A stretch of 61,896 nt of DNA, taken from an uncultured Alphaproteobacteria bacterium (GTDB taxonomy: Bacteria; Pseudomonadota; Alphaproteobacteria; Parvibaculales; Parvibaculaceae). The notes beneath the pieces are model-generated. The model was not told the origin of the DNA. It searched no databases and saw only the letters and a list, made by a program, of their open reading frames with translations. Made by a program: the position numbers and the translations under genes. The stretch is taken from assembly GCA_903889655.1 (NCBI GenBank), contig CAISYL010000197.1, positions 1 to 61,896 of the forward strand. The letters run 5' to 3'. Positions 13,263 to 14,976 of the stretch are shown in pieces; the stretch's first letter is position 1; each line of letters starts with the position of its first letter.

Positions 13263-14333
13263 TCAGTCCGGGCGCGCGGCGAGCCTTTGCGCATGCACGA
13301 TTGCAAGCGTGAAGACGACGAGCGCGCCCGCCTGATGCGCCGCGCCAAGCGGAACCGGCACGGCCCAAAGCAGCGCCCATATGCCGAGGCAGATTTGGGC
13401 GGCGACCGCCAGCGCCAGCCAGGTTGCGCTGCGCGACGCTTCCGCAAAACGCCGTGCGGCGAGCCAATGCCATGCAGTCGCGATCGCGACGAGATAGGCC
13501 ACCATGCGGTGATCGAATTGCGCGGTGAGCTGGCTCTCGAAGAAATTCCTCCACCACGGCGTCACGAAGAAGAGATCGGACGGGATGAAAGCGCCGTTGA
13601 TCGACGGCCAGGTGTTGTAGATGTAGCCGGCTTTGAGGCCCGCGACGAAGCCGCCGAGCAGCATCTGGAAAAAGACGAGACCGGCAAGTACCAACGCAGC
13701 CCTTCGCAAGCCCTCACTTGCGGCGATCGCCGCACGGCCACGCCAGAGGCCGAGCGCGACCCAGACCATATAGGCATAGATCAGCGTCGCGAGACCGAGA
13801 TGGGCGGTCAGCCTGTACTGGCTGACGTCGATGCGGTCCGACAGCCCGCTTTTGACCATCCACCAGCCGAGCACGCCCTGAAGGCCTCCCAGCACGAACA
13901 TGATCGCGAGCTGCGGCGCCAGCGCCCGCTCGATGCGGCGCGTGCCGAGAAACCAGAGGAAAGGCACCAGAAAGGCGAAGCCGATGAAGCGGCCGAGAAA
14001 CCGATGGCTCCATTCCCACCAGAAGATCGATTTGAAATCGCCGAGCGTCATGCCCTTGTTGACGAGCTCGTATTGCGGAATCTGCCGGTAGCGGGCGAAA
14101 GCATCGGCCCAGGCAGCGTCGCTCAGGGGCGGCAGCGCCCCCATGACCGGTTTCCACTCGGTGATGGAAAGGCCCGATTCGGTGAGGCGCGTCAGTCCCC
14201 CGACGATCACCATCGCGAAGATCAGGGCTGCCACGGCGAAGAGCCAGATCGCGATCTGCCGGCGGGCGGCGGTCTGCCGCTCGGTCGGGCCGACCAGAGG
14301 TTCGGCCATTCGGGTTTCGGCACTCATGGTCAT
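13263..14333 (-). CDS. ctaA: Heme A synthase (CtaA/Cox15)
   Basis: A 356-residue eight-helix inner-membrane enzyme that oxidises the C8 methyl of heme O to a formyl group, giving heme A for aa3-type cytochrome oxidases. Family landmarks are VVIGGLTRLTESGLSITEW-like text (here VIVGGLTRLTESGLSITEW), WWEWSHRFLGR with a heme-ligand His, and the second-half helices around TAHLGLATLIYAYM and FDHRMVAYLVAIATAWHW with the matching His residues. GAGGG precedes the double start MTM; I used the first ATG, the second being two codons inside. The gene is divergent from the DUF2842 gene and convergent with metY. No cytochrome oxidase subunit gene is in the window. Confidence 0.93.
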   Translation of the reverse strand: MTMSAETRMAEPLVGPTERQTAARRQIAIWLFAVAALIFAMVIVGGLTRLTESGLSITEWKPVMGALPPLSDAAWADAFARYRQIPQYELVNKGMTLGDFKSIFWWEWSHRFLGRFIGFAFLVPFLWFLGTRRIERALAPQLAIMFVLGGLQGVLGWWMVKSGLSDRIDVSQYRLTAHLGLATLIYAYMVWVALGLWRGRAAIAASEGLRRAALVLAGLVFFQMLLGGFVAGLKAGYIYNTWPSINGAFIPSDLFFVTPWWRNFFESQLTAQFDHRMVAYLVAIATAWHWLAARRFAEASRSATWLALAVAAQICLGIWALLWAVPVPLGAAHQAGALVVFTLAIVHAQRLAARPD

Positions 14334-14417: not shown

Positions 14418-14630
14418 ATGCGCCGCCTGCCCCTTCGCGCCCGCAAGCTCATCGGCACCATCGTGCTGCTGGTCTTTCTGACCCTCTACTCGTTCCTGAT
14501 CATGACAATCGCGGTGAGCGGTCATCTGCCGGAACACGGGGCCGTGCAGTTCTTCTATTACCTGATCGCCGGTACGATCTGGGCCTTTCCGGCCCGCTAC
14601 CTGATGATCTGGATGCTGCGCCCGGATTGA
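14418..14630 (+). CDS. Small two-helix membrane protein, DUF2842 family
   Basis: A 70-residue protein with two membrane helices (LIGTIVLLVFLTLYSFLIMTIAVSG and VQFFYYLIAGTIWAFPARYLMIWM). The opening MRRLPLRARKLIG and the tail AFPARYLMIWMLRPD match the alphaproteobacterial DUF2842 family. GGAG lies six bases before ATG 14418, which decides the start over an in-frame ATG at 14370. It is divergent from ctaA, a neighbourhood I recall as frequent for this family, so a link to cytochrome oxidase or heme A biogenesis is possible but unproven. Confidence 0.8.
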   Translation: MRRLPLRARKLIGTIVLLVFLTLYSFLIMTIAVSGHLPEHGAVQFFYYLIAGTIWAFPARYLMIWMLRPD

Positions 14631-14646: not shown

Positions 14647-14727
14647 TCAGAAGAACGTGCCTGTCTGAACCTTGTTCAGGGCCAGCATGACGAGAAGGAA
14701 GATCACGATCGGCAGAATGGTGGTCAT
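14647..14727 (-). CDS. Predicted 26-residue single-helix membrane microprotein
   Basis: The frame MTTILPIVIFLLVMLALNKV followed by QTGTFF and a TGA stop encodes one continuous hydrophobic helix with a short polar tail. AGGAG lies six bases before the ATG, one of the best ribosome sites in the window. It lies between the tRNA-Pro terminator and the 3' end of the DUF2842 gene, which converges on it. The composition resembles the tiny accessory subunits of respiratory complexes, and ctaA is close by, but I know no named family. It is shorter than most gene finders report. Confidence 0.6.
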   Translation of the reverse strand: MTTILPIVIFLLVMLALNKVQTGTFF

Positions 14728-14786
14728 CTGAGACTCCTGAGACTCGGGATTTGCGCCGCACATTGCCGCAAGCCGCGCGATAAGGA

Positions 14787-14819
14787 AAGGGCCAACGAGG
14801 CGCTGCCCCGTCGGCCCTT
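14787..14819 (-). terminator. Hairpin immediately downstream of tRNA-Pro
   Basis: On the minus strand AAGGGCC and GGCCCTT pair perfectly, extended by GACG/CGTT with one G-T pair. The hairpin begins seven bases beyond the encoded CCA and is followed by TTCCTT. It probably ends the tRNA transcript. Confidence 0.6.
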
Positions 14820-14825
14820 ATTGGA

Positions 14826-14902
14826 TGGTCGGAGCGGCCGGATTCGAACCGACGACCCCTTGTCCCCCAGACAAGTGCGCTACCGGGCTGCGCTACGCTC
14901 CG
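14826..14902 (-). tRNA. tRNA-Pro (anticodon GGG)
   Basis: A 77-nt cloverleaf. The acceptor stem CGGAGCG pairs with CGCTCCG, followed by discriminator A and an encoded CCA. The D-arm contains AGCGCAGCCCGGTAGCGC. The anticodon stem CTTGT/ACAAG encloses the loop CTGGGGG, so the anticodon is GGG, reading CCC and CCU. The T-arm has GGTTCGAATCC. A near-consensus promoter (TTGCCC, 17 bp, TATATT at 14948-14976) lies about 45 bp upstream and a hairpin terminator follows, so it is a stand-alone transcript. I see no integrated element using it as an attachment site. Confidence 0.97.
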
Positions 14903-14947: not shown

Positions 14948-14976
14948 AATATAGACGCGGGCCTTCCGGGGGGCAA
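14948..14976 (-). promoter_or_regulatory. Predicted promoter of tRNA-Pro
   Basis: On the minus strand TTGCCC (14971-14976) and TATATT (14948-14953) are separated by exactly 17 bp. Transcription would start near 14941, about 38 bases before the mature tRNA 5' end. The -10 box matches five of six consensus bases. Confidence 0.65.

Follow-up and report, generated by a model that had tools for sequence, protein, structure and literature searches.

A conserved 26-residue microprotein with a predicted membrane helix, encoded behind tRNA-Pro in Parvibaculales and related Alphaproteobacteria

A 26-codon open reading frame (ORF) between a tRNA-Pro gene and the DUF2842 gene next to ctaA is almost certainly a real, protein-coding gene, as judged from its sequence, its translation being predicted. 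The frame is far beyond what chance would produce: 36 of the 40 Parvibaculales genomes carry an orthologue, and selection at the protein level is strong. It was found in the window, that is, the whole stretch of 61,896 nucleotides that was analysed, which is Parvibaculum-like (order Parvibaculales), the genus being placed in Parvibaculum by named relatives. The product belongs to a family of short peptides with a single predicted membrane-spanning helix, which is most likely to serve as an accessory helix of a larger membrane complex.

The reading frame and its surroundings

The ORF lies on the minus strand (Table 1), from a start codon at 14725-14727 to a stop codon at 14647-14649, and consists of 26 codons plus the stop. 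An in-frame ATG further upstream would give an alternative product of 38 aa. The 26-aa start is favoured over this one by where conservation begins, which is at the shorter start, and by the in-frame stop that many relatives have just upstream of it. A Shine-Dalgarno core (GGAG, AGGA or GAGG) is found at the same distance in 72 of 111 family members, compared to 199 of 2220 (9%) random ATGs. The own genome has one copy of the gene; the second profile match there is a helix of the lipopolysaccharide (LPS) export permease LptF.

Table 1. Features of the microprotein locus in the window
Feature	Position	Strand	Basis
26-codon ORF (81 bases with stop), MTTILPIVIFLLVMLALNKVQTGTFF, predicted single-pass membrane microprotein	14647..14727	-	frame, orthologues and purifying selection
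Shine-Dalgarno sequence AGGAG	14734..14738	-	6 nt ahead of the ATG of the ORF
Stable hairpin in the tRNA-Pro/ORF spacer; possible leaky terminator or processing element	14787..14819	-	folding
tRNA-Pro(GGG), CCA encoded, upstream of the ORF, same strand	14826..14902	-	tRNA identification, Rfam
Promoter-like site TTGCCC-17-TATATT upstream of tRNA-Pro	14948..14976	-	promoter scan
DUF2842 gene, convergent neighbour	14418..14630	+	Pfam (PF11003, E 7.8e-20)
ctaA, heme A synthase, past the ORF, same strand	13263..14327	-	Pfam (PF02628)

The initial annotation, made from the letters alone, had described a 26-residue frame with AGGAG six bases before its ATG, coding for one hydrophobic helix with a short polar tail and lying between tRNA-Pro and the end of the DUF2842 gene, near heme A synthase. 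Frame, strand and coordinates were all correct, residues 3-17 are strongly hydrophobic (mean Kyte-Doolittle value 3.0), and the placement is borne out by gaps of 98 nt to the tRNA gene on the same strand, 16 nt to the end of the DUF2842 gene and about 320 nt to ctaA. The same annotation had also placed a terminator behind tRNA-Pro. A very stable hairpin is indeed present, the 98-nt spacer folding with -44.6 kcal/mol (z -2.9), but its T-run is too poor to be convincing and a terminator scan of the spacer calls none, so that the terminator is uncertain. In other Parvibaculum species, the hairpin is shorter or absent. From the MerR gene to the ORF, the promoter-like site upstream of tRNA-Pro is the sole one found.

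Distribution, selection and peptide features

Searching 61 relatives with the single sequence gave close orthologues in almost every genome of the genus, and in other genera as well, most of them located directly behind tRNA-Pro(GGG). Profiles were built stepwise as four alignments (A1-A4) and then used for wider searches. The orthologues in Parvibaculales, found in this way, include all 27 of the 27 good-quality genomes (at least 90% complete and at most 5% contaminated); a 37th profile match, in genome G020, is LptF and not an orthologue. In a second order, the microprotein was present in 23 of 28 genomes (14 of 15 good ones), in a third order in four of four, and in Caulobacterales in about 55 of 120, about 30 of which were inspected singly. 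An even sample of the class Alphaproteobacteria gave 27 of 385 genomes from 11 GTDB families, the microprotein being undetected by profile search in most of those sampled. With three families added by the Caulobacterales search, the total comes to at least 14 GTDB families. Caulobacter and Phenylobacterium are among the genera that carry it, and the versions in Parvibaculum, Caulobacter and many other alphaproteobacteria are nearly identical.

Among 203 genomes of the phylum there was no full-length member outside the class, only five partial matches with E >= 0.0149. A scan of 84,980 named species with a degenerate DNA pattern of the C-terminal end hit 31 places, of which one was a chance match and 30 were true members, mostly from Parvibaculaceae and Caulobacteraceae (Caulobacter, Phenylobacterium and relatives). 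Plasmid records held no relative, PDB chains no sequence match, and Rfam matched nothing at the locus apart from the tRNA. Pfam and NCBIfam searches with either the peptide or the profile returned nothing, even at E <= 10, and the family, having no model in either collection, would appear to be unannotated. A search by terms of a report on small proteins of S. meliloti (PMC10117765) showed no protein resembling it. In one genome (G282), two copies lie on different contigs (L032 and L125), each close to a contig end, which may be an assembly artefact.

The amino-acid sequence is under clear and strong purifying selection. Among 48 disjoint closest pairs, synonymous changes came to 231.5 and non-synonymous ones to 182.5, giving a pN/pS of 0.26 (binomial P about 1e-41), while the two control frames gave 1.3 and 2.0. 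Changes at codon positions 1, 2 and 3 numbered 111, 62 and 241. The length is likewise held within narrow limits: of 100 distinct peptides, 82 have 26 aa, 14 have 27 and two have 25, so that 98 fall within 25-27 aa. This is a short conserved ORF under protein-level selection, with start and stop fixed, and the support that the initial annotation had called for, a conserved frame with synonymous-biased changes, is borne out.

Few residues are strongly conserved among the 100 peptides, namely Asn18 (100), Gly23 (98), Ile7 (95), Arg24 (87) and Asp26 (78), and the C-terminal end after the invariant Asn is a near-invariant G-R-x-D; the frequencies for Asn18 and Gly23 are partly there by construction, since 96 of the 100 peptides were gathered with a filter that demanded these two residues. 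Asn18 is also invariant in the profile alignments, which were made without the filter, and two members are known with Lys or Arg at position 23. Columns 4-17 are hydrophobic throughout the family, and by this composition the peptide qualifies as a single hydrophobic helix of membrane-spanning length. In 93 of the 100 peptides there is no charge at all before Asn18, and positive charge comes after it; by the positive-inside rule, this suggests a topology with the N-terminus out and the C-terminus in.

Gene order and the tRNA-Pro transcript

The gene order plsX-fabH-ihfA-merR-tRNA-Pro-microprotein-DUF2842(opposite)-ctaA-metZ is an old one. The microprotein gene sits between tRNA-Pro(GGG) and DUF2842/ctaA in Parvibaculales and several other orders, with the tRNA gene as its immediate upstream neighbour in the majority of Parvibaculales and in several further lineages. 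Elsewhere, one side or the other has changed. Families f49 and f121, and f18 in part, keep DUF2842/ctaA but have an altered tRNA side; in f116 and f4, the microprotein gene follows DUF2842 in the same direction. DUF2842 itself is a small membrane protein that remains adjacent to ctaA even where both microprotein and tRNA are gone; a literature search found no paper on it and none on a microprotein associated with heme A synthase.

The neighbours are different again in Caulobacterales, where the names of the adjoining genes come from Pfam matches of representatives. In Caulobacteraceae, the ORF is mostly followed closely, or overlapped, by an SDR gene with folB behind it; in many of these genomes, its end coincides with the SDR start or is no more than about 20 nt away. 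In families f176, f146 and f91, the ORF stands ahead of a Na/Ca exchanger gene, and in f174 it is tail to tail with pgsA, often with a 4-nt overlap. Three genomes with a relocated microprotein retain DUF2842 adjoining ctaA elsewhere. One of them, a Caulobacteraceae genome (G388, locus L242, 1337-1692), still has tRNA-Pro(GGG) there; after an 87-nt gap without the microprotein come DUF2842 and ctaA, which makes this a vacant form of the locus in the window. The gene has thus moved intact between neighbourhoods, whichever the direction of the move, and its function does not require a place beside ctaA.

How is the microprotein expressed? The distance from tRNA-Pro to the ATG is 19-55 nt in most members of two lineages; in three genomes it is 19 nt, with the ribosome site directly behind the CCA. 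Nineteen nucleotides leave no room for a promoter unless it is inside the tRNA gene, so a shared tRNA-mRNA transcript is the simplest reading in these lineages. Co-transcription is less sure in the window itself, because the spacer there is 98 nt with a strong hairpin.

What might the microprotein do?

Given its position near ctaA, the microprotein might be part of heme A synthase (CtaA) or the aa3 oxidase, or help in the assembly of either. It is close to ctaA in eight GTDB families, nearly always with DUF2842 between or beside; the proximity persists after replacement of the tRNA-Pro side (f49, f121 and part of f18), and it occurs in two arrangements, either convergent or with DUF2842 and then the ORF in one direction. 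Against this, the gene in Caulobacterales is intact and under selection far from ctaA, beside SDR, Na/Ca exchanger or pgsA genes, with ctaA elsewhere and DUF2842-ctaA present without the microprotein, and ctaA is far more widespread across genomes than the ORF. Heme A synthase is thus linked to the microprotein by position and not by necessity, and such a role is unlikely. The initial annotation had hinted at a respiratory subunit; what stands of this is a conserved gene for a membrane-spanning microprotein, while the link to ctaA is weakened by the Caulobacterales neighbourhoods that lack it; it may nonetheless have a respiratory role. About as doubtful as the CtaA reading is the idea that the microprotein mimics transmembrane helix 2 (TM2) of LptF, with the LptB2FG exporter as its target or its origin. 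This helix (PF03739, TIGR04407) shares an LPI..F......LN[KR] core with the microprotein, and the topology predicted for both is N-out/C-in; LptF differs in being a permease of about 370 aa with a coupling helix, before which the microprotein ends. As a recurrent second-best profile match across Alphaproteobacteria, LptF helix 2, ahead of the coupling helix, was seen at loci L002 (own genome, contig C68), L028 and L244-L254. In 120 Caulobacterales genomes, all 11 non-family matches at E <= 0.01 were LptF TM2 just before the coupling helix (two were confirmed as LptF/LptG family and one as LptF). An hhalign comparison with LptF gave a probability of 90.6 (E 1.3e-6, 23 columns), a value that is biased since the LptF set was selected by the microprotein profile itself, and comparisons with CtaA, DUF2842, the Na/Ca exchanger and PgsA gave nothing. 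With unselected LptF sequences (Azospirillum, Sinorhizobium, Shinella, Methylobacterium and Pseudorhodobacter), the probability dropped to 7 (E 0.005), although the alignment had the same register and scored above 199 of 200 column shuffles. None of the loci read had a recognisable lpt gene next to the ORF, and short hydrophobic helices readily converge. The resemblance, strong in the selected set and weak in the unselected one, is thus best treated as an unexplained lead. An extended form, in which an LptF helix 2-like microprotein from the 3' trailer of tRNA-Pro(GGG) would modulate LptB2FG, with output scaling with tRNA expression, i.e., with growth rate, appears quite improbable as a whole; spacing in several lineages supports the tRNA-trailer coding part, and the LptF part is a lead only.

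The remaining alternatives fare considerably worse. Type I toxins have a similar small size and hydrophobicity, but the microprotein is single-copy, stable in its synteny and present in every good genome of an order, and matches no toxin family in NCBIfam or Pfam at E <= 10; with neither a family match nor a patchy or multicopy presence, this reading was rejected as very improbable. We give just as little credence to the view that the locus is not a protein gene at all, being instead a conserved RNA element or a leader peptide solely regulating a downstream gene, even though the ORF follows a tRNA and many Caulobacteraceae copies end close to the SDR start. The codon-position bias and the low pN/pS relative to the other frames speak for selection on a protein; free amino-acid change with conserved RNA pairing was not seen, and Rfam shows the tRNA alone, which led us to reject an RNA element. 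A leader peptide was rejected as well, since no particular gene consistently follows the ORF in the same orientation: one and the same peptide is retained in front of genes that are unrelated to one another, and the next gene along often lies on the other strand, as in Parvibaculales, f18 and f174.

The size and design of the microprotein have parallels in known systems. KdpF, YohP and other E. coli-type single-helix proteins, at 25-30 aa, fall into the same size class with the same single-helix design, but no sequence relation was found to them, and they differ in organism and gene context. The tpr gene of E. coli is a small ORF directly downstream of a tRNA, in the shared transcript of the tyrT operon; unlike the microprotein, its product was reported to be protamine-like and has no membrane helix, and the tRNA is tRNA-Tyr and not tRNA-Pro. 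The cytochrome bd subunit CydX (PF08173), of about 37 aa and encoded in cydABX operons, is also a single-pass inner-membrane protein that is commonly unannotated, was discovered by profile searches and has few conserved residues (PMC4325964); the microprotein differs in its length of 25-27 aa and its Asn...G-R-x-D end. Membership in the CydX/YbgT family (PF08173) was rejected, there being no Pfam match at E <= 10, as was CydX-type linkage to cydAB, the neighbours in the loci read being tRNA-Pro, DUF2842, ctaA, SDR, Na/Ca exchanger or pgsA.

On balance, we think it reasonably probable that the microprotein is an accessory helix of a housekeeping inner-membrane complex, made from the tRNA-Pro transcript in Parvibaculales and related orders. 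The family would consist of single-pass inner-membrane proteins of 25-27 residues, expressed in Parvibaculales and several related orders from the tRNA-Pro transcript. Given a spacer as short as 19 nt, processing of the tRNA 3' end would release a short mRNA with a ribosome site just behind the CCA. The helix would then insert so that its uncharged N-terminus ends up outside and the Asn...G-R-x-D tail lies on the cytoplasmic side. In the weakest step of this scheme, it would pack against a housekeeping complex of the inner membrane as a small accessory helix that is constitutively present, like CydX or KdpF. Size, invariance, the constitutive-looking place behind a tRNA and the analogy to CydX (PMC4325964) make such a role the most likely mechanism. 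Since the gene has changed its surroundings while staying intact, the partner does not have to be the product of a neighbouring gene; as candidates, CtaA or the oxidase and LptB2FG are about equally supported, neither strongly.

What the analysis reveals is a microprotein that is found in all good genomes of one order and in at least 14 families, without a Pfam or NCBIfam model. Its presence in Caulobacter, a genetic model, makes its role directly testable. Where the ribosome site follows the CCA by as little as a few bases, the arrangement with tRNA-Pro would in turn offer a clean natural case of tRNA 3' processing and translation on one transcript.
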